A stretch of DNA of 21,309 nucleotides, taken from IMG/VR virus record IMGVR_UViG_3300046787_000122, positions 1-21,309 of that record. One strand, given 5' to 3'. The stretch's first letter is position 1. Each line of letters begins with the position of its first letter. This document shows positions 4,109 to 20,858 of the stretch, one piece after another. The translations under genes were made by a program, and so were the position numbers. Source of the stretch: a virus. The notes below the pieces were generated by a model that made no database searches, was not told the origin of the DNA, and saw only the letters and a program-made list of their open reading frames with translations.

Positions 4109-5140
4109 ATGCAAACCTATTCCTTAGTTCCCTCACGGAACCTCATCATGGCCGAGCGCGAAATGCTCAAGCACGCTATGCCAATCAAAGTTTTGTCTAC
4201 CTTCGGTACACAAAAACAAATCCCTCAAAACAAGACTGACACCGTGGTGTTTCGTCGCGCTTTGCCTATCGATGCTGGTACTAACGGCGCACCTAGCGTG
4301 ACCGCAAGCAACTACTTGATGCAAGAAGGCGTGACTCCAGCAGCTCGCACTATCACGTATCAAGACGTGCAAGTAACTCTGCAACAGTACGGCGTGTTGA
4401 TGAAAATCTCCAGCAAAGCTGAGTCGATGTATGAAGACGACATCCCAGCTGACATGGTGAAATTGGTCGGCGAGCACATGGCTACTTTGGAAGAGTTGAT
4501 CTCTTACGGCGTGGTTCGTGGCGGTACAAACGTTGTTTACGCTAACGGCTCTGCTCGTACAGACGTGAACACTGCTGTGACATTGAACAAGCTGCGTCAA
4601 GCCGCTCGTCAATTGGAAAGCGCGTTCGCTCAGTTGGTGACAGAGAAGTTGGCTGCCTCTGTGAACTACGGCACTCAGGCTGTGGAACCCGGCTACTTGG
4701 TGTTCATCCACACCGACTTGGAAGCCGACTGTCGTAACCTGACTGGCTTCGTTCCTGTCGCTAAGTACGGCTCACAAAAGCCCGTGCACGAGCGCGAGAT
4801 CGGTAGCGTTGAGCGTTTCCGCTTGATCACATCGCCTTACTTCAAGCCATTCTTGGCTGCTGGTGGCACTGTGACTGCTGGCGCTTTCTTGTCAAACGGT
4901 GGCACTTCTGGCACTACTGCCGACGTGTACCCAATGATGGTTGTGGGCCAAGAGGCTTGGGGTCAAGTTGCATTGAAAGGCCAAAACGCCATTCAACCAA
5001 TCTACTTGCCCGCAAAGCAAATCACCCACGCTAACCCAATGGGTCAGTTCGGTTACGTTGGCGCAAACTTCTACAAGAACGCTGTGCGCTTGAACGAAAA
5101 CTGGATGGTCCGTTTGGAATGCGCAGCCTCTGGCCTGTGA
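4109..5140 (+). CDS. Major capsid protein, N4-gp56 family
   Basis: Predicted 343 residues. The sequence matches my knowledge of N4-gp56-family coat proteins: an N-terminal RNLIMAEREMLKHAMP helix, a strand region with KTDTVVFRRALP, then DVQVTLQQYG and KISSKAESMYEDD, and a C-terminal GQEAWGQVALKG followed by the QFGYVGANFYKNAVRLNENWMVRLE strands. It would form the HK97-fold capsid shell. It starts two bases after the scaffold stop, with AAAGGT at the end of the scaffold gene as its ribosome site. Codon use is strongly biased: 20 of 27 leucine codons are TTG, unlike the portal and terminase genes, which fits very high expression. A UUCG hairpin follows the stop. Confidence 0.92.
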   Translation: MQTYSLVPSRNLIMAEREMLKHAMPIKVLSTFGTQKQIPQNKTDTVVFRRALPIDAGTNGAPSVTASNYLMQEGVTPAARTITYQDVQVTLQQYGVLMKISSKAESMYEDDIPADMVKLVGEHMATLEELISYGVVRGGTNVVYANGSARTDVNTAVTLNKLRQAARQLESAFAQLVTEKLAASVNYGTQAVEPGYLVFIHTDLEADCRNLTGFVPVAKYGSQKPVHEREIGSVERFRLITSPYFKPFLAAGGTVTAGAFLSNGGTSGTTADVYPMMVVGQEAWGQVALKGQNAIQPIYLPAKQITHANPMGQFGYVGANFYKNAVRLNENWMVRLECAASGL

Positions 5141-6965: not shown

Positions 6966-9020
6966 ATGGCTAGAAATCAAGTCCAGCTCCCCAAGGTCAA
7001 CTACGAATTGATGAACCTCGGCGGTGGCTTGGATCAAGTCACGCCTACGTTGTCGCTGCCGTCTGGCTACGCACGACGTGCCGCCAACTTTGAGTGCTCG
7101 ATCAATGGTGGCTACACGCGCATCGCTGGCTATGAACGCTACGACGGGCACGACAGTCCATCGGCCGCCAACTACAACGTCTTGATCTGCGCACTCACTG
7201 GCACTGTTGCCGTGGGTGACACCGTTACGGGCGTAACGAGCGCAGCCACTGGCAAAGTGATTGCGCGCGATGGCACAAAGGTTGTGCTCGCTCGAGAGAC
7301 TGGCACGTTTGTCAATGGCGAAACAATTCAGGTCAGCTCATCAAACGTGGGCACTGTGACGTCTGTGCAGGGCATGGACGTTGACGGCTTGACGGATGCA
7401 ACCTACAAGGGGTTGGCAGCGGATGAGTATCGAACGTCGATTGCGGCGGTACCCGGCTCAGGGCCAATCCTTGGCGTCGCCTACTTCAACAACACCGTCT
7501 ACGCTTGGCGCAACAACACCGCCGCCACCGCCGCCAAACTCTACAAGTCCACCTCCTCTGGTTGGTCCGAGGTCGCCCTTGGCTACGAGATCAAGTTTGA
7601 TGGCGGCACTGCCGAGATCCTTGATGGCCAAACCGTGACTGGCGGCACCAGCGGCGCAAGCGGCGCGGTCACTCGCGTGGTGCTCGAGTCGGGCACTTGG
7701 TCTGCAGGCACTGCCACTGGCAAGCTGATCATGTCCCTCACGCTTGGCACATTCGTCAACAACGAGGCTTTGAGGGTGGGCGGCGTAAACAAGGCTGTGG
7801 CCGATGGCACAAGCTCTGCTATCACGCTGGCTCCGAGCGGTCGTGTCGAAATCCAAATCGGCAACTTCGGTGGTGGCACGGCCAACACCAAGATCTATGG
7901 CATTGACGGTGTCAATCGCGGCTTTGAGTTTGATGGCACGGTGTACGTGCCAATCAAGACTGGCATGGCCACGGACGTGCCAACGCGCATCGCGGTGCAC
8001 AAGAACCATTTGTTCTTTGCGTTCGGTGAGTCGCTGCAGTTCTCGGGTATCGGCGAGCCATACCAATGGTCGCCATTGGTGGGCGCGGGTGAGATTGCGC
8101 TGAACGGGTTGATTACCAATTTGTTGGTGCTGCCGGGCAACCAAAGCACTGGCGCCTTGGGCGTCTACACCCGCAACGACACCAACATCCTCTACGGCAC
8201 CAGCTCCGAAACGTTCCAACTCTCCACGTTCAACAGCGGAACTGGCGGCTTGCCATTCACTGCTCAAAACATGGACCAAGCCTACGTGCTCGATGATCGT
8301 GGCGTCATGAACATGAACACGTCGCTGAACTACGGCAACTTCGAGTCCAACGCCCTAACGCTGCGCATTCGCCCATTCATGCAGGCGCGTCGCAACTTGG
8401 CCACTGGCAGCGTGCTCAATCGCGAGAAGGGTCAGTACCGCATCTTCTTTAGCGACGGCACTGGCATATACATGACTTTCAACGGCAGCAAGGTGCTTGG
8501 CATCATGCCCGTGCAGTTCGCCAATGCGGTCACATGCTGCGTCGAGGGCGAGACCCCTGACGGCGCGTCCACCTCGTTCTTCGGCTCGACCAACGGCTTC
8601 GTGTACCGCCTTGACGTTGGCACGTCTTTTGATGGCGCCGTCATTCCAGCCAACTTCAACTTGGTCTACAACAGCGTCAAGTCACCTCGCGTTCTCAAGC
8701 GGTATCGTCGCGCAAGTGTCGAGCTGACTGGCGACTCGTATGCTGAGATCGCGTTTGGGTACGACTTGGGCTATCGCTCGGTCGAACTCGAGCAAGCCTC
8801 TGGCGCCCTGTACTCAAACGACTTGCGCTCGAGCTATTGGGATGAGATGACTTGGGATAACTTTGTTTGGGACGGCCGCGACATCTCTCCATCTGAGATT
8901 GAATTGATGGGCACTGCAGAGAATTTGGGTATCCAAATCTCCTCCGTGTCGGCGATAATTAAACCATTCACGGTGAACAACATCATCGTGCATTACTCCA
9001 TGCGCAGAGGGCTTCGATAA
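6966..9020 (+). CDS. Tail nozzle/hub protein (putative, beta-propeller type)
   Basis: Predicted 684 residues, with a strong AAGGAG ribosome site. The start, including YELMNLGGGLDQVTPTLSLP and SGYARRAANFECSINGGYTRI, resembles large tail-hub or nozzle proteins of podophages (P22 gp10-like stabilisation proteins). The central and C-terminal parts carry many short beta motifs such as IAVHKNHLFFAFGESLQFS, LGVYTRNDTNILYG and YVLDDRGVMN, consistent with a beta-propeller platform under the adaptor ring. Two related beta-rich insertions (residues about 79-135 and 213-280) share GDTVTG/GQTVTG..TS.A.G.V and GTFVN.E, and may be surface knobs. The stop overlaps the following fibre gene by one base (TAATG). 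Function is inferred from family likeness and context. Confidence 0.65.
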   Translation: MARNQVQLPKVNYELMNLGGGLDQVTPTLSLPSGYARRAANFECSINGGYTRIAGYERYDGHDSPSAANYNVLICALTGTVAVGDTVTGVTSAATGKVIARDGTKVVLARETGTFVNGETIQVSSSNVGTVTSVQGMDVDGLTDATYKGLAADEYRTSIAAVPGSGPILGVAYFNNTVYAWRNNTAATAAKLYKSTSSGWSEVALGYEIKFDGGTAEILDGQTVTGGTSGASGAVTRVVLESGTWSAGTATGKLIMSLTLGTFVNNEALRVGGVNKAVADGTSSAITLAPSGRVEIQIGNFGGGTANTKIYGIDGVNRGFEFDGTVYVPIKTGMATDVPTRIAVHKNHLFFAFGESLQFSGIGEPYQWSPLVGAGEIALNGLITNLLVLPGNQSTGALGVYTRNDTNILYGTSSETFQLSTFNSGTGGLPFTAQNMDQAYVLDDRGVMNMNTSLNYGNFESNALTLRIRPFMQARRNLATGSVLNREKGQYRIFFSDGTGIYMTFNGSKVLGIMPVQFANAVTCCVEGETPDGASTSFFGSTNGFVYRLDVGTSFDGAVIPANFNLVYNSVKSPRVLKRYRRASVELTGDSYAEIAFGYDLGYRSVELEQASGALYSNDLRSSYWDEMTWDNFVWDGRDISPSEIELMGTAENLGIQISSVSAIIKPFTVNNIIVHYSMRRGLR

Positions 9021-11164
9021 TGTCAAACGATTTTTACAACCACGCCACGTACCCAGCACCAAACTCTGCTGGCTCTTCTGCCGCGATGCGTGCAGAGCTG
9101 GAGTTGATCAAGGCTGGCTTTGACAAGATGCCAACCCTCACTGGCAACGGCTACAAGTTGGTCGGCGTCAACGCCGCTGGTACTGCGCTTGAGGCTGATG
9201 CTCACCTAATGAACGTCGACTTCAGCACGACCAACACTGCCTCTGGTGCAGTTGGTCGACTGACTTGGAACGACACCGATGGCACGCTTGACCTCGGCTT
9301 GAAGGGTGGCAACGTCACCCTGCAAATTGGCCAAGAGCAAAACGTGCGCATCTACAACGAGACCGCAACTGGTTTCACAGACATGCAAGTGGTGCGAGTC
9401 ACTGGCTCGTCAGGTACGCGCCTGACTGCAGACTTGGCACAGGCCAACGCAGAGAACACATCGGCCTCAACATTGGCCATCATGACTGAGCCAGCAGCGT
9501 CGCACGCTGAAGGTTTCGCCACCACGTTTGGCCTGATTCGTCAGGTCAATACATCGTCGTTCTCAGAAGGCGCCACGCTGTACTTGTCGCCATCAACAGC
9601 TGGTGGCATTACGACCACTCGACCAAGCGCGCCGAATCACACAGTGATCTTGGGTTGGTGTGTTCGCTCTCACGCGACACAGGGTCAGATCTACGTCAAC
9701 ATCAACAACGGCTACGAGTTGGAAGAGTTGCACGATGTGCTGATCACATCCGTGGCTAACAACAACATGCTGCGCTACAACTCGTCTTCGGGTGTGTGGC
9801 AAAACATTGCAGGCCCTGCAGGTGCAGTGGTTGGTACGAGCGACACTCAGACTCTGACCAACAAGACCATCAGCGGCGGCACTGTCAACGGCGCTGCCGT
9901 CATTGGCCTCAGCTCTCCAACCAACAGCGGCGACGCGGCAACCAAGGGCTACGTCGACACAGCTGACGCCTTGAAGCTGAACCTTGCTGGCGGCACGATG
10001 TCTGGCGCTATTGCCATGGGCACAAACAAGATCACTGGTGTGGGCACCCCTACCGCTGATCAAGACGCTGCCACAAAGGCTTACGTCGACTCCATTGCCC
10101 AAGGCTTGGACGTCAAGGGTTCAGTCAAGGCTGCGACCACTGCGAACATTACGCTGTCTGGCACGCAAACAGTTGACGGCATCTCGTTGAGCGTTGGCGA
10201 TCGCGTGTTGGTCAAGGACCAAACATCTCAAGCTGAGAACGGCGTCTACGTCGTGGCCTCTAGCACATGGACTCGCACCACTGACGCCGACACATGGGTT
10301 GAGCTGACTGGCGCATTCGTGTTCGTCGAGCAGGGTACTGCCAACGACAACAACGGCTACGTGTGCACGATCTCAAGCGGCGGCACATTGGGTTCGACTG
10401 CAGTGACTTGGGATCAGTTCTCAGGCGCTGGCCAAATCACTGCTGGCGCAGGTATGACCAAGTCGGGCAATACGCTCAACGTCGTCACAGCCAGCTCGGG
10501 CCGCATCGTTGTCAACGCTGACAACATTGATTTGGCAACTGTCGGCACTGCTGGCAACTATGCCTTGGTCACCGTGGACGCATACGGTCGCGTGACCGCT
10601 GGCTCATTGCCCACCACCCTTTCTGGCTTCGGCATCACTGACGCCTACACCAAGACTCAGATCGACAACAGCTTGGCCCTCAAGCTCAATCTGGCTGGCG
10701 GCACAATGAGCGGCGCCATTGCGATGGGCACCAACAAGATCACAGGTCTTGGCGCACCCACTACAGACAACGACGCCGTCACTTTGAAGTACGTCAGCGA
10801 CTTGTATGGCTCAACCGCAAGCGCAGCGTCCTCTGCTGCTGCTGCATTGGTCAGCCAGAACGCTGCGGCGGCAAGCCAATCTGCGGCCGCTACAAGCGCC
10901 AGCAACGCGTCAACAAGCGAGACCAATGCCGCCGCATCAGCTGCGGCCGCTGCGGCCTCCTACGACTCGTTTGACGATCGCTACCTCGGTCCAAAGTCCA
11001 CGGCCCCAACCGTGGACAACGATGGCAACGCGTTGCTTGAGGGCGCCCTGTATTGGAACACTGGCATCAGCGCGCTCTACGTCTATGACGGTGCAAGCTG
11101 GAATTTTTACGGTGCGGCAGATCCTGCTGGCACAGCGGTCGCGATGGCAATCGCTTTGGGTTGA
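9020..11164 (+). CDS. Tail fibre protein
   Basis: Predicted 714 residues. The N-terminal 60 residues (SNDFYNHATYPAPNSAGSSA, then MRAELELIKAGFDKMP and VGVNAAGTALEA) look like a virion-attachment domain. A TQTLTNKTISGGTVNGA segment follows. Two copies of a tail-fibre repeat lie at 318-358 and 554-594 (LKLNLAGGTMSG...AATKAYVDS type). Between them is a beta domain with DGISLSVGDRVLVKDQT and ENGVYVV, common in fibres. Residues about 597-650 are Ala/Ser-rich, probably a trimeric helical stalk. The C-terminus ends in ALYWNTGISALYVYDGASW. It would be the trimeric receptor-binding or connector fibre. No chaperone or peptidase domain is visible at the tip. Confidence 0.85.
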   Translation: MSNDFYNHATYPAPNSAGSSAAMRAELELIKAGFDKMPTLTGNGYKLVGVNAAGTALEADAHLMNVDFSTTNTASGAVGRLTWNDTDGTLDLGLKGGNVTLQIGQEQNVRIYNETATGFTDMQVVRVTGSSGTRLTADLAQANAENTSASTLAIMTEPAASHAEGFATTFGLIRQVNTSSFSEGATLYLSPSTAGGITTTRPSAPNHTVILGWCVRSHATQGQIYVNINNGYELEELHDVLITSVANNNMLRYNSSSGVWQNIAGPAGAVVGTSDTQTLTNKTISGGTVNGAAVIGLSSPTNSGDAATKGYVDTADALKLNLAGGTMSGAIAMGTNKITGVGTPTADQDAATKAYVDSIAQGLDVKGSVKAATTANITLSGTQTVDGISLSVGDRVLVKDQTSQAENGVYVVASSTWTRTTDADTWVELTGAFVFVEQGTANDNNGYVCTISSGGTLGSTAVTWDQFSGAGQITAGAGMTKSGNTLNVVTASSGRIVVNADNIDLATVGTAGNYALVTVDAYGRVTAGSLPTTLSGFGITDAYTKTQIDNSLALKLNLAGGTMSGAIAMGTNKITGLGAPTTDNDAVTLKYVSDLYGSTASAASSAAAALVSQNAAAASQSAAATSASNASTSETNAAASAAAAAASYDSFDDRYLGPKSTAPTVDNDGNALLEGALYWNTGISALYVYDGASWNFYGAADPAGTAVAMAIALG
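9971..10093 (+). repeat. Tail-fibre repeat, copy 1
   Basis: Encodes 41 residues of the fibre (318-358). The first 23 residues are identical to copy 2 at 10679-10801, while the DNA differs at 13 of 69 positions in that stretch, all synonymous. Confidence 0.85.
10679..10801 (+). repeat. Tail-fibre repeat, copy 2
   Basis: Encodes residues 554-594 of the fibre. It is protein-identical to copy 1 over the first 23 residues (from LKLNLAGG to TNKITG), then diverges. The serine codon has switched from TCT to AGC, indicating an old duplication under protein-level constraint. Confidence 0.85.
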
Positions 11165-11180
11165 TTAACAAGGAATCAAA

Positions 11181-11507
11181 ATGGCAAACAATTTCACCTC
11201 CTACGCCAACAAAGATGTCGGCACATCCGCAGCTACTGTGGTCACCGTCGGCTCTTCGACTCAAACCACCGTCATTGGCATGTCGTGCGCAAACACCACG
11301 GCAAGCCCCGTGACTGTTGACGCTTACATCACTCGTTCTAGCGTAAACTACTACCTGATCAAAGGCGCGACAGTCCCAGTTGGCAGCGCGTTGGTGATCG
11401 TTGGTGGAGACCAAAAAGTTGTGCTGACTACGAGCGACGCATTGAAAGTTGTGTCGTCTGCTGCCGCGTCATTGGACGTGGTCACAAGCGTGCTCAACAT
11501 CACCTAA
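11181..11507 (+). CDS. Small beta-rich virion protein (putative)
   Basis: Predicted 108 residues with an AAGGAA ribosome site. It is rich in Val, Thr, Ser and Ala with alternating hydrophobic residues (TVVTVGSSTQTTVIGMSCAN, VTVDAYITRSSVNYYLIKGA, ALVIVGGDQKVVL), as in a compact beta-sandwich. There is no signal peptide or membrane segment. Small proteins of this style are often found between fibre genes in podophages of aquatic bacteria, and a role as a tail or fibre-associated structural protein is likely. I do not recognise a characterised family. It lies between the long fibre and the first adhesin cassette. Confidence 0.65.
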   Translation: MANNFTSYANKDVGTSAATVVTVGSSTQTTVIGMSCANTTASPVTVDAYITRSSVNYYLIKGATVPVGSALVIVGGDQKVVLTTSDALKVVSSAAASLDVVTSVLNIT

Positions 11508-11517
11508 GAGGTAGACG

Positions 11518-12399
11518 ATGTCCTTCATTGGCAACACACCAACACAACAGGCTTTTGTCCCAGCCATTGATTACTTCAGTGGCAATGGGTCAACGGTTGC
11601 ATTCACACTGTCTCGACCTGTGGCCTCGGTTGCTCAGGTGCGAGTCACTGTCAACAACGTTGCGCAAAACCCAAGCACAGCCTTCACTGTTCTCAACAGC
11701 ACGATCACCTTCACAGGCGCACCGTCGACTGGCGCGAGCAACATCTACGTCGAGTACACCAGCCCAATCACTCAGGTGATGCAGCCAAGCCAAGCAACTG
11801 TTGGCACGCTGCAGCTGGTGGATGCTGCTGTCACTGCAGCAAAGCTGTCAAGCACGACAGGCACTGGCGCTGTTGCATTGGCAAGCCTCCCATCATTCCC
11901 CACCACGCTTGGCGTTGGTGGCGCTACGGCTTCTGCCTCTGGTTCTGGTGTCACATTCCCTGCAACTCAATCAGCATCATCTGACGCAAACACGCTGGAT
12001 GATTATGAGGAAGGGACTTGGACTCCGGGCCTTACGTTTGGTGGTGGAGCCTCTGGCATGACATACACCACACAATTGGGCCGATATGTAAAAATTGGCA
12101 AACAGGTAACCATTTGGCTGTATGTCGTGCTGTCGAGTAAGGGCGCTTCCACTGGCTCGGCGAAAATCACTGGATTGCCGTTTACCAACGCATCGGGTGG
12201 AGATGCCGAGGGTGCTTCTTATATCCCAAACTATTGGTTAAACATGGCTACCAGCGTAGTACCCGCTGGATATGTCAATGCAAGTGCAACAACGATTGCC
12301 ATGATAAATAATGTGGCAGGCACAGGCACAGGAGGACTTTCCAATAGCGATTTTGGCAACTCCGCCGCCTTCTACGGCTGTGCAACCTATAGCATCTAA
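11518..12399 (+). CDS. Short tail fibre/adhesin A1
   Basis: Predicted 293 residues; GAGGT lies just upstream of the ATG. The N-terminal domain (about 1-85) contains YFSGNGSTVAFTLS, VRVTVNNVAQNPSTAF and ITFTGAPSTGASNIYVEY, a beta module frequent at the start of phage fibres and shared with A2 at 13984. A short linker (QLVDAAVTAAKLSS) leads to a C-terminal domain starting at DDYEEGTWTP near residue 161, followed by MTYTTQLGRYVKIGKQVTIW, a module I recognise from many aquatic phage fibres and take as the receptor-binding tip. Local GC drops from about 52% in the 5' half to about 42-50% in the 3' half, which fits acquisition of the tip. Adhesin function is inferred. Confidence 0.75.
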   Translation: MSFIGNTPTQQAFVPAIDYFSGNGSTVAFTLSRPVASVAQVRVTVNNVAQNPSTAFTVLNSTITFTGAPSTGASNIYVEYTSPITQVMQPSQATVGTLQLVDAAVTAAKLSSTTGTGAVALASLPSFPTTLGVGGATASASGSGVTFPATQSASSDANTLDDYEEGTWTPGLTFGGGASGMTYTTQLGRYVKIGKQVTIWLYVVLSSKGASTGSAKITGLPFTNASGGDAEGASYIPNYWLNMATSVVPAGYVNASATTIAMINNVAGTGTGGLSNSDFGNSAAFYGCATYSI

Positions 12400-12454
12400 C
12401 CGCAAAGTTCATTAGCCTGATTGGATTGGTCAGGCCAGACACAAAGGAAAAAAA

Positions 12455-12715
12455 ATGTCACTGCAAGAAACAAAAACCATCGACCAAATCACCGTCACCG
12501 AGAACGGCACTGTGTTGTACCGCGAAGCAACTCGCATCCTCAAGGATGGCGAGCAGATCGCTCAGACATTCCACCGCACATCGTTGACACCCGGCCAAGA
12601 CCTGACTGGCCAACCAAGCAACGTGGCTGCAATCTGCACCGCTGCTTGGACACCTGAAGTCATCGCCGCATACGAAGCGCAAATGGCTGAGGCAGCCGCA
12701 CGTCAAGGAGCCTAA
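12455..12715 (+). CDS. Small fibre-associated protein B1
   Basis: Predicted 86 residues with AAAGGA before an A-rich spacer and the ATG. The sequence DQITVTENGTVLYREATRIL, then QTFHRTSLTPGQDLTGQP and a final AWTPEVIAAYEAQ helix is of a type I associate with small proteins encoded next to phage fibres; it appears soluble with an N-terminal beta half and C-terminal helix. It may be a structural or assembly factor for the adhesins. It occupies the same slot as B2 (14982) in the second cassette but shows no likeness to it. Function is not known to me. Confidence 0.65.
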   Translation: MSLQETKTIDQITVTENGTVLYREATRILKDGEQIAQTFHRTSLTPGQDLTGQPSNVAAICTAAWTPEVIAAYEAQMAEAAARQGA

Positions 12716-12717
12716 TC

Positions 12718-13812
12718 ATGGCACTAAGCAAAATTGAAGCCGCGTCCGTCAATGGACTTGGCTATGGGTTTAAGAATCGAATCATTAATGGCGATATGCG
12801 CATTGATCAGCGCAACGCTGGGGCTAGTGTTAGCGGTCAAGGATTTGCTGCTGATAGGTTTTGCTCGTTTAATCAAACGGATGGGGCTATTACCAGCCAG
12901 CAAGTTTCAGACGCGCCAGCAGGATTTAACTACTCTTACAAAATAACTGTAACTACCGCAGACACAAGTCTGGGCACTGTCCAGTACATGGAGCTTCGCC
13001 AACTAATTGAGGGCTACAACGTAGCGGATTTAGGTTGGGGTACTGCGTCGGCAAAAACAGTGACGCTTTCATTTTGGGTCAAGTCAAGTCTGACTGGTGC
13101 TTTTGGTGGTTCTTTAATGAACTCAAGCGTAAACAGGTCTTACCCGTTTACCTACACCATCAATGCGGCAAACACGTGGGAGTACAAGACCATCACCGTC
13201 TCAGGAGACACCACGGGCACTTGGGAGAAAACAAACGGCAACGGCATGTTTCTTATGTTAAACCTTGGTGCTGGTACAGACTTCCAAGGAACTGCTAATG
13301 CTTGGGCTGCATCTAGAAAGCAAACAGTTTCAGGTGCGGTCAGCCTTATTGGAACACTCAATGCCACATGGCAAATTACAGGCGTTCAGCTTGAATCTGG
13401 CCCAGTAGCAACAGAATTCGACTACCGTCCATACGGTGCTGAGTTTTCTTTGTGCCAGCGGTATTTTCAAACAAACATACCTTACGGTACTGCCCCCGCA
13501 AACGGGCTTTCGACATATATTTCGACTGTCATGAATGCGTATAGCACAGGAGGCGGCTACGGAAGCTGGATTACTTTCTCAACGGTAATGAGAGCCACTC
13601 CTACGACGTTTACGTTTTACAAACCATCTGCCTCTGTTGGGGCGGATGGTCAGTGGGTGTATTACACAGGTACTTGGGTGTCATTTACAACAACAGGAAC
13701 GGCTCAGGCTGCGCCTACTGGCTTTGCCATTGAAGCGGTAAAAGGCTCTGCATTTACCTCAAATTTGGCATACATCATGCTTGGAAGTTACACAGCATCA
13801 GCGGAGCTTTAA
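12718..13812 (+). CDS. Tail adhesin C1
   Basis: Predicted 364 residues, with AAGGAG seven bases upstream. The N-terminus has the motif NRIINGDMRIDQRNAGASV, followed by a long beta-rich region with LIEGYNVADLGWGTASAKTV, LSFWVKSSLTGAFGGSLMNS, YPFTYTINAANTWEYKTITV and GDTTGTW, and ends in ITGVQLESGPVATEFDYRPY and LCQRYFQ. This module is common in phage fibres of aquatic viruses, and its layout suggests a jelly-roll carbohydrate-binding domain (inference). The paralogue C2 at 15140 is clearly related up to the LCQRYFQ motif; the last about 110 residues are unrelated apart from F..VMR and the terminal SAEL. Local GC is near 47-50%, lower than the long fibre. Confidence 0.8.
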   Translation: MALSKIEAASVNGLGYGFKNRIINGDMRIDQRNAGASVSGQGFAADRFCSFNQTDGAITSQQVSDAPAGFNYSYKITVTTADTSLGTVQYMELRQLIEGYNVADLGWGTASAKTVTLSFWVKSSLTGAFGGSLMNSSVNRSYPFTYTINAANTWEYKTITVSGDTTGTWEKTNGNGMFLMLNLGAGTDFQGTANAWAASRKQTVSGAVSLIGTLNATWQITGVQLESGPVATEFDYRPYGAEFSLCQRYFQTNIPYGTAPANGLSTYISTVMNAYSTGGGYGSWITFSTVMRATPTTFTFYKPSASVGADGQWVYYTGTWVSFTTTGTAQAAPTGFAIEAVKGSAFTSNLAYIMLGSYTASAEL

Positions 13813-13816
13813 TATG
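13803..13816 (+). promoter_or_regulatory. Ribosome site for D1 inside the last codons of C1
   Basis: GGAG at 13803-13806, seven bases before the D1 ATG, is read within the final Ala-Glu-Leu codons of C1. The same CGGAGCT string sits at the end of C2 before D2 (16191-16197), so the coding end and the ribosome site are conserved together. Confidence 0.65.
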
Positions 13817-13987
13817 AAAACTTACAAACTTGTTCAAAATCAGATTACAGGTGTGTTGTCAGATTACGCACTTGAAATGGTTGACGGCAACTTTACAGGT
13901 GTGAATGTCCACACAGAAACAAACCAAGAGTATCTAAAATGGCTGGCCGAAGGTAACACCCCCGAGCCAGCAGAGGAGCAACAATGA
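13814..13987 (+). CDS. Small tail-fibre-associated protein D1
   Basis: Predicted 57 residues. The ATG at 13814 is chosen because GGAG lies seven bases upstream and the C1 stop is one base before; a longer frame from 13781 would run deep into C1. The protein starts MKTYKLVQNQITGVLSD and ends QEYLKWLAEGNTPEPAEEQQ. The ending is shared with D2 ([16 protein letters not shown]) and is common in small proteins encoded after phage adhesin genes, some of which help fibre assembly. It overlaps A2 by four bases (ATGA). A fibre-chaperone or minor tip role is inferred from position only. Confidence 0.7.
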   Translation: MKTYKLVQNQITGVLSDYALEMVDGNFTGVNVHTETNQEYLKWLAEGNTPEPAEEQQ

Positions 13988-14982
13988 GTCTCATCGGAAA
14001 CCCGCTCAACTCAGTAGCGTTTCTCACTGATCAGTTCAGCGGCAACGGTTCGACCGTGGCCTTCACAATGTCTGTGGCGCCTGCCAACACGGCATCGGTT
14101 CTCGTCGCTATCACAGGCGTCGTGCAAGACCCAAGCACCTACTCTGTGGTGGGTACAACGCTGACGTTCTCTGCCGCCCCTCCAACGGGTACAGCGAACA
14201 TCTCTGTGCGCTACATGGGCATCCCTGCCAGTGGCGTGACAACGACCGCCTATCGCACTGTGACCGAGTTCACTGCAACATCTGGCCAAACAACATTCAG
14301 CGTGCCCAGCTACACGATTGGCTACATCGATGTGTTCCGCAACGGCGCACGCTTGGGTACGGCTGACTACACAGCAAGCAGCGGCACGACTGTTGTGCTC
14401 GCCGCCGCCGCTACGCTTGGCGACCTGATTGTCACCGAGAGCTTCTATGTGAGTTCTGTGTTGAACGCGATCCCTGCTACGGCTGGCGCGGTCAACTCGA
14501 CTTACTTGGCCGACTCTGCTGTGCAGACTTCCAAGCTTGATGCTGCTGCTGTTACTCAAGCCAAGCTCGCTGCAAACGTGGCAGGTACTGGCCCTGCGTT
14601 TAGTGCTGTTATGGCATCAAACCAAAGCGTTACTGGTTCCGTAACAACAAAGATTGCTTTTGCGGTTGAGCAATTTGACACCAATAATAACTATGACACC
14701 AGCACATATCGGTTTACGCCGACTGTCGCTGGGTATTATCAGTTTAATTTGGGTTTGATTTCAAACTCAGTTGATCTTAGCCAACTGACGCTATATAAAA
14801 ACGGGTCTGCAATTTATGGAGCATACCCGTCTACAACAGCTGGACTCAATTTAAGCGCAGTTGTGTACGCAAACGGAAGCACAGACTATTTTGAGGTGTA
14901 TGTACTGACATCTGCAAATGCATCTGTGAGAGACATAGATGTTTACTCATATTTCCAAGGTTTCTTAGCAAGGGCAGCATGA
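13984..14982 (+). CDS. Tail fibre/adhesin A2 with C1q-like tip
   Basis: Predicted 332 residues, overlapping the D1 stop by four bases. The N-terminal domain (DQFSGNGSTVAFTMS, VVQDPSTYSVVGTTLTFSAA, TANISVRYMG) is paralogous to that of A1. A second beta module follows (TEFTATSGQTTFSVPSYTIG, DVFRNGARLG, VTESFYVSSVLNAIP), then an AAVTQAKLAANVAGTG linker. From about residue 200 the sequence GPAFSAVMASNQ, VEQFDTNNNYDTSTYRFTP and TVAGYYQFNLGL has the pattern of C1q/TNF-like trimeric jelly-roll domains. GC falls from about 62% in the 5' part to about 38-42% in the C1q-like part, suggesting domain acquisition. The product would be a trimeric adhesin. Confidence 0.8.
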   Translation: MSLIGNPLNSVAFLTDQFSGNGSTVAFTMSVAPANTASVLVAITGVVQDPSTYSVVGTTLTFSAAPPTGTANISVRYMGIPASGVTTTAYRTVTEFTATSGQTTFSVPSYTIGYIDVFRNGARLGTADYTASSGTTVVLAAAATLGDLIVTESFYVSSVLNAIPATAGAVNSTYLADSAVQTSKLDAAAVTQAKLAANVAGTGPAFSAVMASNQSVTGSVTTKIAFAVEQFDTNNNYDTSTYRFTPTVAGYYQFNLGLISNSVDLSQLTLYKNGSAIYGAYPSTTAGLNLSAVVYANGSTDYFEVYVLTSANASVRDIDVYSYFQGFLARAA

Positions 14983-15143
14983 TGACACTTTACGACAAAA
15001 TCAAAGCAATCTACCCTGAGCTGCAAGACGCAGACTTCTTGACCGTTATTGCGCTGCAAAACGACAGCGATGGTCGTGGTGACTACATCGCTAAGTGGGA
15101 ACACCCAAGCTTGGCCCAACCAACTGAGGAACAATTAGCATGA
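14982..15143 (+). CDS. Small fibre-associated protein B2
   Basis: Predicted 53 residues from the ATG at 14982, or 54 from the adjacent ATG at 14979; AAGGG lies seven bases before the later ATG, which I prefer. The sequence MTLYDKIKAIYPEL, FLTVIALQNDSDGRGDYIAKW and HPSLAQPTEEQLA is a type I associate with small proteins beside phage tail fibres; the W...PT.E.L ending resembles fibre-assembly-type proteins. It overlaps both neighbours (TGATG at its start, ATGA with C2 at its end). It fills the slot of B1 in cassette 1 without visible homology. Function is inferred only from position. Confidence 0.7.
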   Translation: MTLYDKIKAIYPELQDADFLTVIALQNDSDGRGDYIAKWEHPSLAQPTEEQLA

Positions 15144-16201
15144 CAAGAGCAGCATCCTTAGCCCAAATGGGCAGCAACAGTTTGACGATGCGCAATCGCA
15201 TTATCAATGGCAATATGGTCATTGATCAGCGGAATGCGGGGGCAAGTGTTAGTTTTGCAACTGGTACAAACGGATACGCTCTTGACCGTTGGTACATTGA
15301 CAACGCGACTGATGGGGCATTCACGATTGAGCAAGTTGAAGATGCTCCTGCTGGTTTTTATCAATCGCTAAAGCTAACTGTAACTACTGCTGATGCGTCA
15401 ATCGGTGCAACTCAAGACTCAGTCATTGGGCAGAGAATTGAAGGTTTGAATGTCAATGATTTAGGTTTTGGAACCGCATCTGCATCAACAGTCACTATCT
15501 CATTCTGGGTCAAGTCAAGTCTGACTGGCACGTTTGGTGGCTCTTTGATGAACAGTGCTTATACACGAGCATACCCGTTCAGCTTTACCATCAGCTCTGC
15601 AAATACTTGGGAACAAAAATCCGTAACAATTGCTGGTGATACAAGCGGAACGTGGTTAAACACAAACGGCGTTGGTATGCGATTGTCGATATCAATGGCT
15701 GCTGGTTCTTCTTACTCTGGTACTGCGAATGCTTGGGCTTCTAGCTTACTGCTACAGCCAACAGGTTCAACAAACGTCATTGGCACAAGCGGCGCCACGT
15801 TCTACGTCACAGGCGTCCAACTGGAAGCAGGCACAACCGCAACACCTTTCGAGACTCGTCCTTATGGGATGGAGTTGGCTTTGTGTCAGAGGTATTTTCA
15901 GCTTCAATCTGCAGGCGTAAGTGGGGTTTGTTCAAATACAACAGACTTCATTGCGGCTATTAGCTTTACGTGCGTCATGCGCTCACAGCCAACCGCCTCG
16001 TGCCCTGCTTTAAGAATTTCAGATGTATATACAAATGCTTGGGTACAAAGCTCACCAAGCGCAGCGCTTAGGACTGCCTCAGTTGGCGCGGTATCTGGCG
16101 GCACTTATGTATTTAGTAACTTTTCCGGACTTACTGCTGGCAGGTTTTCTGTAGTTGAAAGTGCTGGCTACCAACCAATTTCACTTTCTTCGGAGCTGTA
16201 A
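15140..16201 (+). CDS. Tail adhesin C2
   Basis: Predicted 353 residues, overlapping B2 by four bases, with GAGGA nine bases upstream. It is a paralogue of C1: it shares NRIINGNMVIDQRNAGASVS, EDAPAGF, LTVTTAD, RIEGLNVNDLGFGTAS, ISFWVKSSLTGTFGGSLMNS, GDTSGTW, TGVQLEAGTTATPFETRPYG and LCQRYFQ. The C-terminal about 100 residues (from LQSAGVSGVCSN) differ from C1 except for F.CVMRSQPT and the final SSEL. The conserved part is probably a trimeric beta scaffold with carbohydrate-binding character, and the variable end probably contacts the receptor (inference). GC is around 45%, lower than the upstream long fibre. Confidence 0.8.
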   Translation: MTRAASLAQMGSNSLTMRNRIINGNMVIDQRNAGASVSFATGTNGYALDRWYIDNATDGAFTIEQVEDAPAGFYQSLKLTVTTADASIGATQDSVIGQRIEGLNVNDLGFGTASASTVTISFWVKSSLTGTFGGSLMNSAYTRAYPFSFTISSANTWEQKSVTIAGDTSGTWLNTNGVGMRLSISMAAGSSYSGTANAWASSLLLQPTGSTNVIGTSGATFYVTGVQLEAGTTATPFETRPYGMELALCQRYFQLQSAGVSGVCSNTTDFIAAISFTCVMRSQPTASCPALRISDVYTNAWVQSSPSAALRTASVGAVSGGTYVFSNFSGLTAGRFSVVESAGYQPISLSSEL

Positions 16202-16204
16202 ATG
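16192..16204 (+). promoter_or_regulatory. Ribosome site for D2 inside the last codons of C2
   Basis: GGAG at 16192-16195, six bases before the D2 ATG at 16202, is part of the Ser-Glu-Leu codons that end C2. It mirrors the arrangement at the end of C1. Confidence 0.65.
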
Positions 16205-16369
16205 TATAAACATCCAAAACTTTCTTTTGGTCAAGCCGAAGCAGTTTGCATTATCAGAACAAGCGATGGCGCAAGCATCCCCTTCGACCCCGCCAACACA
16301 GACTACCAACAATACCTCAAGTGGCTCGAAGATGGCAACACACCTGAACCTGCTGACGAGGTGGCCTAA
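16202..16369 (+). CDS. Small tail-fibre-associated protein D2
   Basis: Predicted 55 residues, beginning [20 protein letters not shown] and ending [20 protein letters not shown]. The C-terminal half matches D1, and [20 protein letters not shown] is a pattern familiar from small proteins encoded after phage adhesins. The ATG follows directly after the C2 stop and has a GGAG six bases upstream. Its stop overlaps the next ATG (TAATG). Assembly factor or minor fibre component are the likely options; neither can be proven from sequence. Confidence 0.75.
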
Positions 16370-16680
16370 TGTTTACTGACGACCAAGGTGATCGCAAAGA
16401 AACGCCGGACGAGATGAGCATCGAGCACAAGCTCGACCTTATCTTGCTCGAGTTCAAAAAACTAGAGGGCGCCTTTGCGCGTAACGAAGATGGCAGCGTC
16501 GACTTCGACGGGCACCGCAGATACCACGAGGCAATGATCAAGGCCGCTGAAGAGCAGGCCGCATTTTGGCGCGAGCTGAAGATCGACATTGCCAAGAAGG
16601 GCCTGTGGGGTTTGCTTGTGATTGTGTGCGGCCTGTTCGTTGCTGGCCTCACTGCAAAGACAGGCATCAGCTTGAAGTAA
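16369..16680 (+). CDS. Single-pass membrane protein, possible holin-type
   Basis: Predicted 103 residues, with GAGGTGG four bases upstream and a one-base overlap with D2. The N-terminal 75 residues are charged and helical (EHKLDLILLEFKKLEGAF, DGHRRYHEAMIKAAEEQAAF). One membrane segment lies near residues 79-95 (GLWGLLVIVCGLFVAGL), with KK immediately before it. The short tail is TAKTGISLK. It opens the lysis block, and small one-segment proteins in this place can be holins or accessory lysis proteins. I do not recognise a named holin family, so the role is a suggestion from topology and neighbourhood. Confidence 0.6.
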   Translation: MFTDDQGDRKETPDEMSIEHKLDLILLEFKKLEGAFARNEDGSVDFDGHRRYHEAMIKAAEEQAAFWRELKIDIAKKGLWGLLVIVCGLFVAGLTAKTGISLK

Positions 16681-16681
16681 T

Positions 16682-17368
16682 GTGCCAATAGGGACCGCGC
16701 TATTCGCCGCGACTACAGCGTTCCAACTCGTCAAAGAGGGGTGCGCGCTGTACAAGGAGGTCAAGGGTGTAGCGGGTAACGTTAAGCAGATCTATGACGA
16801 GATCAATGGTCAGTTCGCTGGAAAGAAAGTTTCCAAAGAGCAGGCCAAGAAGATCGAAGAGGAAAAGCAGCGAGTCGCCACGGTGGCCGCTGCAAATCCT
16901 GATGATGTGATCTTCAAGATTGGCGATGAGTTGGGCAACATGTTCGACGCATTCGACAGGCTTGAAGCTCTGTTTTGGGAGCAGGAGCGAGAGGCAAAGA
17001 AACTGCAATCCGCTGACGTATCTCTGAAGCGAATGGCGCTTAGGCGAATCATGATTCGCAACAAGCTATTGGCCATGCAGGTTGAGCTGAGGGAGCAAAT
17101 GGTTTACCACTCCCCACCAGAGCTTGGCGCACTGTGGTCACAGTTCGAAGAGATGCGTGAGCAGATTGAAGAGGAGCAGCGAATCGCAAGAGAGAAGCAG
17201 GCGCGCGAGGACGCAGCGATGCAACGCGAGCGAGAGGCTTTGATGGAAGAGGTCCGTGTCAAATCGATTGACGCTGGCTTGGCTGTTGTTGGTTTGATTT
17301 TTATGGGGTGGTTGTTGTGGCAAGTAAAAAATCAAGCGATAGCACGAGCGTCTTTCTGGCACACCTAA
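16682..17368 (+). CDS. Coiled-coil protein with C-terminal membrane anchor
   Basis: Predicted 228 residues from a GTG one base after the previous stop; no strong Shine-Dalgarno is visible. The N-terminal PIGTALFAATTAFQLVKEG and KEVKGVAGNVKQIYDEI resemble a family of phage proteins with an amphipathic start. The centre (about 100-195) is a long charged coiled coil (MREQIEEEQRIAREKQ and similar). A single membrane segment is near residues 197-215 (AGLAVVGLIFMGWLLWQV). It could be a virion protein that reaches the membrane during DNA entry, or an accessory lysis protein; the sequence does not decide between these. The 3' end overlaps the next gene by about 50 bases. Confidence 0.65.
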   Translation: MPIGTALFAATTAFQLVKEGCALYKEVKGVAGNVKQIYDEINGQFAGKKVSKEQAKKIEEEKQRVATVAAANPDDVIFKIGDELGNMFDAFDRLEALFWEQEREAKKLQSADVSLKRMALRRIMIRNKLLAMQVELREQMVYHSPPELGALWSQFEEMREQIEEEQRIAREKQAREDAAMQREREALMEEVRVKSIDAGLAVVGLIFMGWLLWQVKNQAIARASFWHT

Positions 17369-17508
17369 TCGTGTTGGCAGTATTGATCGTCGTGTTCTCG
17401 TTGACTTTCATTGCCTACGTCGAGACCTTGTGGATGAAAGATGAAATCAAGAAAGAGGCCCGCGAATTGCGCAAGCTCAAAGAGGAAGTAAAGGAGAGAC
17501 TGAAGTGA
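17317..17508 (+). CDS. Small membrane protein with N-terminal segment and charged helix
   Basis: Predicted 63 residues from the GTG at 17317, preferred because GGGGT lies just upstream; a GTG at 17308 would add three residues. The N-terminus is polar (ASKKSSDSTS), then one membrane segment (VFLAHLIVLAVLIVVFSLTF), and the C-terminal 25 residues are a highly charged helix (KDEIKKEARELRKLKEEVKE). This topology resembles a miniature inner-membrane spanin subunit, and the next gene encodes a lipoprotein, but a true Rz/Rz1 pair exists downstream. It overlaps both neighbours. Function unknown; a membrane complex with the neighbouring lipoprotein is an inference. Confidence 0.6.
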   Translation: MASKKSSDSTSVFLAHLIVLAVLIVVFSLTFIAYVETLWMKDEIKKEARELRKLKEEVKERLK

Positions 17509-18223: not shown

Positions 18224-18684
18224 TGAAGCGAACGGCCATCACTGTGTTGGTGACCTTGCTGGTGATCTTCGGCATCTACCGCTTCGGTTTCAGCAAAGGC
18301 TGGGGTGAGCGCGATGCTGAGATGCAAAGCGAGATCGCCATCAAGAACGAAGAGTCACGCGCGCGCGAGCAAAAGCTCGGTGAGCAGCTCAACCAAACCT
18401 CAACCCAATTGAAAGACGCCAATGATGCAATCAATCAAAAACAGTCTGCTCTTGATCGCGCTATCAGTGCTGGCCGGGTGCGCCTCCCCTCCTCAAGTTG
18501 CGTACAAGCCAATGCAGGTTCCACCGCTGCCAACGGGAATAGCCAAGCAGGAAGCGAATCTGACCGACAGACTCTCGAGCTTATTGCTCAAATCGCAGCC
18601 GACGGCGACCGAGCCATCCTCCAGCTCAACGCCTGCGTCGACGCCTACAACTCAGTCAGGAGCCAAGTAAATGATCAGCGCTGA
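18223..18684 (+). CDS. Rz: Inner-membrane spanin (i-spanin)
   Basis: Predicted 153 residues from the ATG at 18223, chosen because AAGGAG lies five bases upstream; a GTG one codon earlier is also possible. Residues about 5-20 (AITVLVTLLVIFGIYRFG) are a single N-terminal membrane anchor. The periplasmic part is a coiled coil (about 28-85), then a Ser/Gly-rich region with RLPSSSC, and a terminal helix LQLNACVDAYNSVRSQ. This matches lambda Rz-type i-spanins, which link the inner membrane to an outer-membrane lipoprotein and disrupt the outer membrane in the last step of lysis. A complete Rz1-like lipoprotein gene lies inside it in another frame, which strongly supports the call. Confidence 0.88.
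   Translation: MKRTAITVLVTLLVIFGIYRFGFSKGWGERDAEMQSEIAIKNEESRAREQKLGEQLNQTSTQLKDANDAINQKQSALDRAISAGRVRLPSSSCVQANAGSTAANGNSQAGSESDRQTLELIAQIAADGDRAILQLNACVDAYNSVRSQVNDQR
18422..18670 (+). CDS. Rz1: Outer-membrane spanin lipoprotein (o-spanin), embedded in Rz
   Basis: Predicted 82 residues, read in a different frame entirely within Rz (18223-18684). The N-terminus MMQSIKNSLLLIALSVLAGC is a lipoprotein signal with lipobox VLAGC (Cys20). It is followed by a proline-rich stretch (ASPPQVAYKPMQVPPLPTG), typical of Rz1, and a Ser/Thr/Pro-rich end. The start may be ATG 18422 or 18425. In lambda the mature o-spanin sits in the outer membrane and pairs with Rz. The stop is immediately before the endolysin start. 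This is an embedded architecture, as opposed to overlapping or separate spanin genes. Confidence 0.88.
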   Translation: MMQSIKNSLLLIALSVLAGCASPPQVAYKPMQVPPLPTGIAKQEANLTDRLSSLLLKSQPTATEPSSSSTPASTPTTQSGAK

Positions 18685-19285
18685 ACAACTCAAACGCCTA
18701 CACATCAACCCCGACCTAGCGCCCGTCTTCAACGAGACGTTCGATCGCTGGGGCATCAGCACCCCTCGCCAACAAGCGGCGTTCCTTGGTCAAGCTGGCC
18801 ACGAGTGCGGCAACTTCACCAAGCTGGAAGAGGGCCTCAGTTACGCGGCCGATCGCCTCATGAAGATCTGGCCAAAGCGATTCCCCACCATGGAGATCGC
18901 CAGCAAGTACGCCCGCAATGAGAAGGCTTTGGCCAACTTCGTGTACGCCAACCGCATGGGAAATCGTGACGAGAAGTCTGGGGATGGGTATCGTTTCCGC
19001 GGCTCGGGTTGGCTCCAATTAACTGGGCACGACAACTTCTACCACGCCGGCAAAGCCTGCGGGTTTGACTACGTGATGAACCCAGATTTGGTTCGCACAC
19101 CAAAGCACGCCGCCCTCACGGCCGGCTGGTTCTGGGCGACGCACGACTGCAACCGCTTGGCCGAGACTAGCAATTGGGTCGCCCTCACCAAGAAGATCAA
19201 CGGCGGGACCATTGGCCTAGAAGACCGCATTCGCCACACCGCCTTGGCCATGAATATTTTTGACGCCGGTCCGGTCCTAGCATGA
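18671..19285 (+). CDS. GH19-type (chitinase-like) endolysin
   Basis: Predicted 204 residues, with AGGAG eight bases upstream inside the end of Rz. The motif AAFLGQAGHECGNFTKLEEG gives His44-Glu45 as the likely catalytic acid and Glu54 as the second acidic residue of GH19 enzymes. GDGYRFRGSGWLQLTGHDNF near residue 110 is the hallmark substrate-binding segment, and AALTAGWFWATHDCNRLAE follows. GH19 endolysins cleave the beta-1,4 glycan bond in peptidoglycan. No signal peptide or separate cell-wall-binding domain is visible, so it probably needs a holin to leave the cytoplasm. It is the last gene of the lysis block; the next gene lies 83 nt away. Confidence 0.92.
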   Translation: MISAEQLKRLHINPDLAPVFNETFDRWGISTPRQQAAFLGQAGHECGNFTKLEEGLSYAADRLMKIWPKRFPTMEIASKYARNEKALANFVYANRMGNRDEKSGDGYRFRGSGWLQLTGHDNFYHAGKACGFDYVMNPDLVRTPKHAALTAGWFWATHDCNRLAETSNWVALTKKINGGTIGLEDRIRHTALAMNIFDAGPVLA

Positions 19286-19368: not shown

Positions 19369-20421
19369 ATGGCTACCACTGTACAAAATCCATTTGACAC
19401 ACAGCAGGCGTCGGCCACGGGCAATGGCATCGTAGGCTCTGCTATTCAAAGCGGCTCGCCACCCCCAGCCCCGTCGGTGGCCAGCGAGACCACTGCCCCA
19501 GCATCAAACATCTCTAGCGGCCCATCGCCCGCTGCCAACACCACCGCCATGTATGCGCCCACAACGCGCGACATCGATCAACAGACCGGCACAGTGCAGG
19601 GTCAGGTCAACAGCATCCTCGCCACAGACAGCCCGCTCATGCAGCGCGCACGCACTCTTGCCACCCAGCAAATGGCTGGTCGAGGTTTGGTGAACAGCTC
19701 AATGAATGCAGGCGCAGGCGTGGCAGCAATGACCGACAAGGCTATGGCCATGGGCGCGCAGGATGCCAACGCCTACAACCAAGCCGCCAGTGAAAACGTG
19801 GCAGCCAAGAACGTCTCTGGTCAATTCAATGCAGGCGCATTGAACACCGCCTCTCTGCAGACTGGTCAGCAAAAATTCACCGCAGAGCAAACCGCGTTGG
19901 ATCGCTCACAGCAGACCAACCTGCAAGTCGGCCAACAAAAGTTCACCGCTGAACAGAACAAAGCTCAGCAAGACTTCACCGCGGCCCAAACAAATCTTGA
20001 TCGTGCGCAGCAAGTTGCATTGGCTGACAAGAGCAACGCCGCGCAACTCAACTTGCAAAAGGCTCAGCAAGATTTCACATCTGCTCAAACTGTTCTCGAC
20101 CGTGCGCAGCAGACAAAGCTGCAAGACGACCAGCAAGAGGCAGTCGCCAAGCAACAGGTTCTCGACAACCAAGCAAAGCTCGATCAGCTTGGCCTGCAGA
20201 TTGATGCGAACAAGGCAACCATTCCATCGACGTTTGCGTCGAGCATCACCAACACAGCAATGACTGGCGTCAACGCGATCATGGCCGACGGCGCCATGAA
20301 CGCAGCTGCAAAGCAGACAGCCATCAGCAACTTGGTGACTTACGCGAACAGTCAGATCTCTTGGGCTGAAAAGTTCTACGGCACAACCATTCCAAAAATC
20401 ACAACACCAACAGTTAAATGA
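19369..20421 (+). CDS. Coiled-coil, probably virion-internal protein
   Basis: Predicted 350 residues, with GAAAGG five bases upstream. The N-terminal 65 residues are Ser/Ala/Pro-rich and probably disordered. Residues about 84-140 contain LATDSPLMQRARTLATQQMA, GRGLVNSSMNAGAG and GAQDANAYNQAA, a conserved pattern I have seen in podophage late proteins. Residues 167-248 form a Gln-rich repeat region with copies of QQxFTxxQTxLDRxQQ (167, 189 partial, 200, 233), predicted to be helical. The C-terminus (about 285-350) is a second helical domain (WAEKFYGTTIPKI). The gene lies next to an Ala/Gly-rich membrane-active-looking protein, so a DNA-ejection or internal virion role is likely, but this is inference. 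Confidence 0.65.
   Translation: MATTVQNPFDTQQASATGNGIVGSAIQSGSPPPAPSVASETTAPASNISSGPSPAANTTAMYAPTTRDIDQQTGTVQGQVNSILATDSPLMQRARTLATQQMAGRGLVNSSMNAGAGVAAMTDKAMAMGAQDANAYNQAASENVAAKNVSGQFNAGALNTASLQTGQQKFTAEQTALDRSQQTNLQVGQQKFTAEQNKAQQDFTAAQTNLDRAQQVALADKSNAAQLNLQKAQQDFTSAQTVLDRAQQTKLQDDQQEAVAKQQVLDNQAKLDQLGLQIDANKATIPSTFASSITNTAMTGVNAIMADGAMNAAAKQTAISNLVTYANSQISWAEKFYGTTIPKITTPTVK
19867..20112 (+). repeat. Coding repeat QQxFTxxQTxLDRxQQ
   Basis: Four units within the protein at 19369-20421, starting near residues 167, 189 (truncated), 200 and 233. The last two copies are most alike, both preceded by KAQQ and ending LDRAQQ. Spacing is irregular, so this is helical repeat growth and not a regular tandem array. 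Confidence 0.7.
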
Positions 20422-20858
20422 TCTTTCGCAAAGCCAAACTTGATGACATTCCAGCGATTGTTGATATTGCTGTGGAGTCGGTGTCTCAAGATCCTTTGCC
20501 ACTCAGAATCAATCGCGCCGCGATGGCTGACACCGCAAAGGTTTGCTTGAACCCAGCCCACTTCATGTGGGTTGCTGAAGATGATGGAGTTGTTGTTGCT
20601 GCGGTTGCGGCATGTGTGCAACAGGGATTTTGGTTTGATAAGTTGCAGTGCTCTGTGCTGCTCTTCTACACGCGAAAGCCATCGGCAGGTTTGCCTTTGC
20701 TTCGCGAGTTGGCTAAGTGGGTGAAGAGTCGTAGTGGCATCAAGCTCGCAATTATTTCGTTGGAGCCAAACGCAGATCCGCGGTTGGTAAAGTTTTTTAA
20801 AAAGGTTGGGTTTGACAGAGAGTCAATTCAACTCACGTATGTAAGGAGTGCATCATGA
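20418..20858 (+). CDS. GNAT-family N-acetyltransferase (phage type)
   Basis: Predicted 146 residues, overlapping the previous stop by four bases (ATGA). The start MIFRKAKLDDIPAIVDIAVE is the classic beta1-alpha1 of GNAT folds. The centre has FMWVAEDDGVVVAAVAACV (beta2-beta3 hairpin) and SVLLFYTRKPSAGLPLLREL, where RKPSAGLP replaces the usual Q/RxxGxG/A acetyl-CoA loop in degenerate form. KLAIISLEPNADPRLVKFFK and KVGFDRESIQLTYV give the typical C-terminal strands. It would transfer an acyl group from CoA to an unknown amine. GNAT genes recur among virion genes of podophages; the substrate is not known to me. The loose CoA loop leaves activity uncertain. Confidence 0.8.
   Translation: MIFRKAKLDDIPAIVDIAVESVSQDPLPLRINRAAMADTAKVCLNPAHFMWVAEDDGVVVAAVAACVQQGFWFDKLQCSVLLFYTRKPSAGLPLLRELAKWVKSRSGIKLAIISLEPNADPRLVKFFKKVGFDRESIQLTYVRSAS

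Follow-up and report, generated by a model that had tools for sequence, protein, structure and literature searches.

The region from 11518 to 16369 is probably a hypervariable host-recognition island built of four tandem bicistrons, A1-B1, C1-D1, A2-B2 and C2-D2, each made up of an adhesin gene and the small partner gene behind it. Gain, loss and exchange act on the pairs and not on the four-gene block, and A pairs with B, and C with D, strictly by class. The initial annotation had called these eight genes correctly, in order and in position, and had read them as a four-gene cassette duplicated whole, with replacement of one small gene; the relatives and the phylogeny described below do not bear out that history.

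Layout of the array and its surroundings

The window, by which we mean the whole stretch of DNA analyzed, is an entire 21309-base linear virus record, and the carrier of the array is a podovirus-type phage. The array and the features around it are as follows.

640-2817: portal, P22/SU10-type
4109-5140: major head protein (MCP), phrog_1357
9020..11164, + strand: long tail-fibre-like gene, 714 aa, several PHROG tail-fibre matches; left context of the array
11181..11507, + strand: 108-aa gene directly left of the array, 78-96% conserved in array-bearing relatives
11518..12399, + strand: A1, 293-aa fibre protein; aa 1-150 match phrog_18673 tail fiber protein, E 6.6e-13
12455..12715, + strand: B1, 86 aa, small partner of the type-1 head; phrog_6228, E 4.5e-21
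12718..13812, + strand: C1, 364-aa adhesin; phrog_4492 "tail fiber protein," E 5.3e-53
13814..13987, + strand: D1, 57 aa, small partner of C; phrog_20370, E 6.6e-5; motif DYQxYLKWLAEGNTPxPA
13984..14982, + strand: A2, fibre protein, 332 aa; PF00386 C1q head at aa 205-328
14979..15143, + strand: B2, 54 aa, XkdW-family small partner of C1q heads; PF09636
15140..16201, + strand: C2, 353-aa adhesin; phrog_4492, E 1.5e-48
16202..16369, + strand: D2, 55 aa, small partner of C; phrog_20370, E 2.9e-14
18671-19285: GH19 endolysin

All eight array genes lie on the + strand, tightly packed and with open frames. Overlaps of 4 nt occur at D1/A2, A2/B2 and B2/C2, and the 55-nt spacer between A1 and B1 is the sole larger gap. 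Since most neighbors abut or overlap slightly, co-translation is very likely, and with the whole string translated together, one virion probably carries several adhesins. The earlier proposals that these are adhesin or fibre genes and that a virion could bear more than one receptor-binding device are both favored by family matches, fold and neighborhood.

To the right of the array are small membrane-type proteins and then the endolysin. Farther on, a Gln-rich protein (19369-20421) contains degenerate repeats (QQKFTAEQT.LDRAQQ), with homologues of 289 to 1143 aa in relatives, and a GNAT-type acetyltransferase (20418-20858; PF00583 above cutoff) occupies the same position in nearly all capsid relatives. 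A search against a defence-gene library gave no match.

Fibre proteins, adhesins and their small partners

The A proteins consist of a common N-terminal domain joined to unrelated distal heads. Homology between A1 and A2 is confined to aa 1-80 (51%, E 4e-17). The distal head of A1, which we call type 1, spans approximately aa 156-293, begins with DDYEEGTWTP and belongs to a family without a name. That of A2 is a C1q domain, which scores 29.2 bits against a Pfam gathering cutoff of 23.7 for PF00386, a family found in A2 only and not in A1. For A2, sequence searches against solved structures returned only C1q and collagen X; for A1, B1 and C2 they gave no credible relative, the matches being to such proteins as antibody light chains. 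The N-terminal domain is not tied to one kind of head: an HMM of it matches proteins with type-1 (16), C1q (20), C (8) and E (1) bodies, E being a further adhesin-like class described below.

The C proteins are predicted CBM4-like carbohydrate-binding adhesins. C2 consists of an N-terminal leader, MTRAASLAQMGSN, a CBM4-like jelly roll at approximately residues 35-230 and a variable C-terminal beta domain. Its AF2 model has a pLDDT of 82, and Foldseek matched the jelly roll to CBM4 1k42 (E 5.3e-6, probability 1.00, TM 0.64 on the target) at 12% identity. A Pfam search of C1 and C2 gave no match at E <= 1, and for that reason we speak of a CBM4-like fold and not of a CBM4. Proteins of the C family end, after their most variable domain, in an invariant Glu-Leu (consensus SAEL; the C1 and C2 genes end at 13812 and 16201).

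The partner of C is D, which is preceded by C in 212 of 214 loci; conversely, D follows C in 199 of the approximately 220 cases that do not run off a contig. The divergence of D does not correlate with that of C (Mantel r -0.07) or significantly with that of the tail of C (r 0.04), so a finely tuned match between the two is unsupported, and fine co-evolution of D with C was dropped as a candidate. The conserved portion of D is a short motif.

The B genes show the strictest association. HMMs seeded from the window proteins were run on 422 loci, which had been collected as matches of B1, B2, C or the capsid protein and do not count as independent; among these, B1 is preceded by a type-1 head in 84 of 84 distinct loci and B2 by a C1q head in 101 of 105. 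The four other genes upstream of B2 are two E genes and two unlabelled ones that resemble wrong-frame ORFs, and no crossing of B1 or B2 between the head classes occurs among the loci. These counts are conditional on the presence of B, and the two head outcomes are mutually exclusive. The two B proteins are unlike each other, as the initial annotation had noted: their alignment shows no relation. B2 belongs to the XkdW family (PF09636, 31.2 bits, above the Pfam gathering cutoff of 24.6) and also matches a "tail fiber assembly protein" PHROG weakly (0.0014). The AF2 model of B1 (pLDDT 92.5) predicts a three-stranded sheet and two helices; a fold search with B1 found zero PDB matches at E <= 0.001, and its best viral matches in BFVD are uncharacterised phage proteins.

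The divergence of B tracks that of the distal domain of its A (Mantel r 0.22 and 0.25, 0 of 500 permutations) but not that of the first 60 aa (r 0.06 and 0.03), a covariation that may reflect linkage, since the distal part of A is the part that adjoins B. Median dN/dS values are 0.10 for B1, 0.15 for B2, 0.34 for D and 0.36 for C. B1 and B2 are under purifying selection, and B is thus a conserved small gene next to a variable head.

Fibre chaperones such as Tfa, gp38 and V22 gp27 are usually encoded just 3' of the fibre gene. The B genes have the arrangement of such pairs, each being a small gene immediately downstream of, and specific to, a single fibre class. From this position and class specificity we infer that each B is most likely a fibre assembly factor specific to its class; D probably acts as the assembly factor of C, on less evidence than we have for B. 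A different reading of the same modular array is that B and D are not chaperones but small virion parts, remaining on the fibre as tip caps, adaptors or connectors. We consider this rather unlikely in view of the gene slot, which is the customary one for chaperones, and of the weak match of B2 to an assembly protein family, even though class-strict pairing and conservation suit a stable complex equally and the conserved part of D is only a short motif. Fibre chaperones of Alteromonas phages have themselves been suggested to be transient fibre caps (PMC10579305).

With B and D taken as assembly factors, the array may work as follows. C would bind a surface glycan through its CBM4-like domain, and A would present a C1q or type-1 head. 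B, as a chaperone or cap specific to its class, would assist in assembling the distal head of the preceding A, and D would serve C likewise, less specifically.

Relatives and the history of the two sets

We searched the whole records of capsid relatives, which have 84-100% MCP identity to the window. C was found in 2 of 43 searched records. Forty-two of these are MCP relatives, of which only one has any C; many of these 42 contigs are fragments, and several of 57-58 kb likewise lack C. The other carrier, L419, came from the search with C. Relative L321 has 91% nucleotide identity to the window over 11.6 kb up to 11644 and diverges inside A1, and its contig ends soon after. A near-identical backbone with unlike content is the mark of a variable island, and the carbohydrate-binding, C1q, XkdW and fibre genes of the array are the content of such islands.

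The closest array-bearing relative, L401 (MCP 90%, 108-aa gene 95%), has the order A1-B1-A2-B2-E-C-D followed by a homologue of the 16369 gene. It lacks C1-D1 precisely, between B1 and A2, which identifies the A-B and C-D pairs as the units that move. The 45-kb contig L419 has the 108-aa gene and then A1-B1-C1-D1-A2-B2-E-C2-D2; homologues of the window portal and capsid genes were not found in it, so the full string occurs in another backbone too. L412 and L417 have no array; in them a homologue of the 9020 gene, 1611 aa long, is followed by a 77-aa ORF and the 16369 homologue. Homologues of the long fibre-like gene at 9020-11164 range from 601 to 1611 aa among relatives, and L412 and L417, with their long fibre and no adhesin array, give the impression that a phage has either one long fibre or a short fibre together with the array.

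At the DNA level, similarity between the window and L401 is limited to islands: the start of the A1 head (11947-12026), B1 (12437-12661), the N-terminal part of A2 (13992-14607), B2 with approximately the first 30 nt of the following gene (14970-15172), parts of C, and 16276 rightward. The distal heads of the two have no DNA similarity. The right edge of the variable block is the 3' half of D2 (from approximately 16275), identity to L401 and L419 resuming at 16275-16276. B2 is followed by C2 in the window but by E in L401; these two genes start with the same leader (MTRAASLAQMGSN and MTQAANLAQVGSN, respectively) and continue into different bodies.

The E genes, adhesin-like and of 172-175 aa, lie between B2 and C (L401:10129-10656; L419:9543-10061) and have their leader in common with the C2 of the window; the family comprises 39 ORFs in the fetched loci. 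Short N-terminal leaders recur across classes far more than in shuffled sequences, with 20-54% of best matches above the 99th percentile of the latter. This shuffle comparison is the test; regex counts of leader types were post hoc and are not one. Conserved islands (the A N-terminus, B, the N-terminal leaders and the 3' half of D) thus alternate with variable adhesin bodies. Recombination in such islands, in leaders and small genes, could swap or drop adhesin bodies and so change host range.

The arrangement itself invites another history, in which an ancestral A-B-C-D cassette was duplicated in tandem, B was then replaced and the remainder diverged. The order is indeed repeated head to tail, and L419, with its other backbone, has both sets in matching order, so that the two-set state is not a one-off. 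Homology between the sets had been claimed for A, C and D. It stands for C (C1/C2, 49% over 347 aa, E 1e-100; approximately 61% over the core) and for D over 36 aa (44%), and for A it holds only in aa 1-80 and fails for the distal parts. Protein and DNA alignments of the two sets accordingly leave B and the distal two-thirds of A outside any duplication, and at the DNA level the two sets resemble each other most in short conserved segments, one of 118 nt (77%) and one of 59 nt (83%).

The C genes also do not behave as the products of a duplication. A sister relation of C1 and C2 was rejected in an AU test (p 0.0056, lnL difference 33.8; 39-row IQ-TREE), and the clade that unites them in a FastTree built from 155 C cores has 148 leaves. 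Their nearest relatives sit in other contigs: C2 is 77% identical to L003 and C1 67% to L089, compared to 61% between C1 and C2. The same holds across contigs. In a sample of 208 C-D pairs, a co-resident C was the closest relative of none of the 51 C genes that share a contig with another C, and the nearest co-resident had a median rank of 73 of 208; arrays are thus generally composed of unlike members. Judged from these comparisons of sequence, C1 and C2 have separate histories. The block boundaries, moreover, do not act as a single unit, since L401 lacks the internal C1-D1 alone, and each B fits the distal domain of its own A. The relatives essentially show units acquired separately, and we regard duplication of the whole cassette as highly improbable.

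The initial annotation had also suggested that one set might be a reservoir for switching, in which case it would be silent and brought into use by inversion or site-specific recombination. The existence of two sets favors this idea and nothing else does. There are no inverted repeats of >= 25 nt within 10500-17500, which rules out switching through them; the genes run in one direction, touching or overlapping by a few bases and with all eight frames open; B is under purifying selection; and a sister-like pair that could act as donor and recipient is absent. We consider a silent reservoir likewise highly improbable.

Between two and five C genes occur in at least 25 of 156 C-bearing loci, a count that takes in the window and some loci near-identical to each other. 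Multi-unit arrays are widespread, in cultured phages as well.

Known systems and the pairing rule

Among annotated phages, in which the units (C, D, C1q-XkdW and type-1-head genes) were detected with the HMMs built here, Myoviridae sp. ct2os315 (MW202796) has C1q, xkdw, a tail fiber gene and a small ORF. Methylophilales phage Venkman has two C-D pairs, and Methylophilales phage MEP401 has C1q-XkdW, a 336-aa gene and C-D. Synechococcus phage S-H34 (L162) has five C and three type-1-head genes within approximately 10 kb; most of them are labelled hypothetical or tail fiber, and the HMMs detected neither B nor D in this run. The exact string A1B1C1D1A2B2C2D2 was found in none of these four phages, nor were E and B1 found in their array regions. 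We found no description of the exact array in the open-access literature searched.

The kinds of genes and their variability are already known (PMC3909814, PMC7468147). Metaviromic islands of marine phages hold host-recognition genes that vary between related phages (Mizuno et al. 2014, PMC3909814), and as here they include "carbohydrate binding domain" proteins, tail fibres, C1q, XkdW and putative tail fibre assembly proteins. The passages on those islands list gene types and do not describe a pairing of small gene with head class or tandem AB-CD arrays. Recombination between conserved islands has long been described for the adhesin loci of T-even phages (Tetart et al. 1998, cited in PMC7468147).

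In the Alteromonas phages A5 and V22 (Gonzalez-Serrano et al. 2023, PMC10579305), as here, a fibre gene is followed by a small partner, and the module is common to phages of different backbones. The chaperone there combines a small beta sheet with a helical body, which the B1 prediction resembles in outline only; no match in sequence or fold links B1, B2 or D to it, and here four pairs of three types stand in one locus. The branched, multi-receptor tail spike complex of Ackermannviridae (PMC11414711) likewise has tandem receptor-binding genes with common N-terminal domains, variable C-terminal heads and exchange. It differs in its XD/TD connector domains and depolymerase spikes, domains that were not found in the array.

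The array is thus an ordinary means for aquatic phages to alter attachment, made of gene kinds that are known. The pairing of small gene and head is undescribed in the open-access literature as far as searched, and to that extent it is a new detail. More tentatively, and at somewhat less than even confidence, we suggest that class-specific adhesin assembly factors include two families so far unrecognised as such, phrog_6228 (B1) and XkdW (B2), each serving one kind of distal fibre head, and that the virion displays combinatorial adhesins plugged onto common N-terminal leaders. If this is true, the pairing rule leads to a direct test of the function of XkdW, long unassigned.

The rule itself is testable: the small 3' gene predicts the fibre tip, with B1 denoting a type-1 head, XkdW a C1q head and D a CBM4-like adhesin. 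It offers a starting hypothesis for each of three small phage protein families that lack an assigned function, and it aids the annotation of receptor-binding loci in uncultivated freshwater phages, where the adhesins are too variable to recognise.
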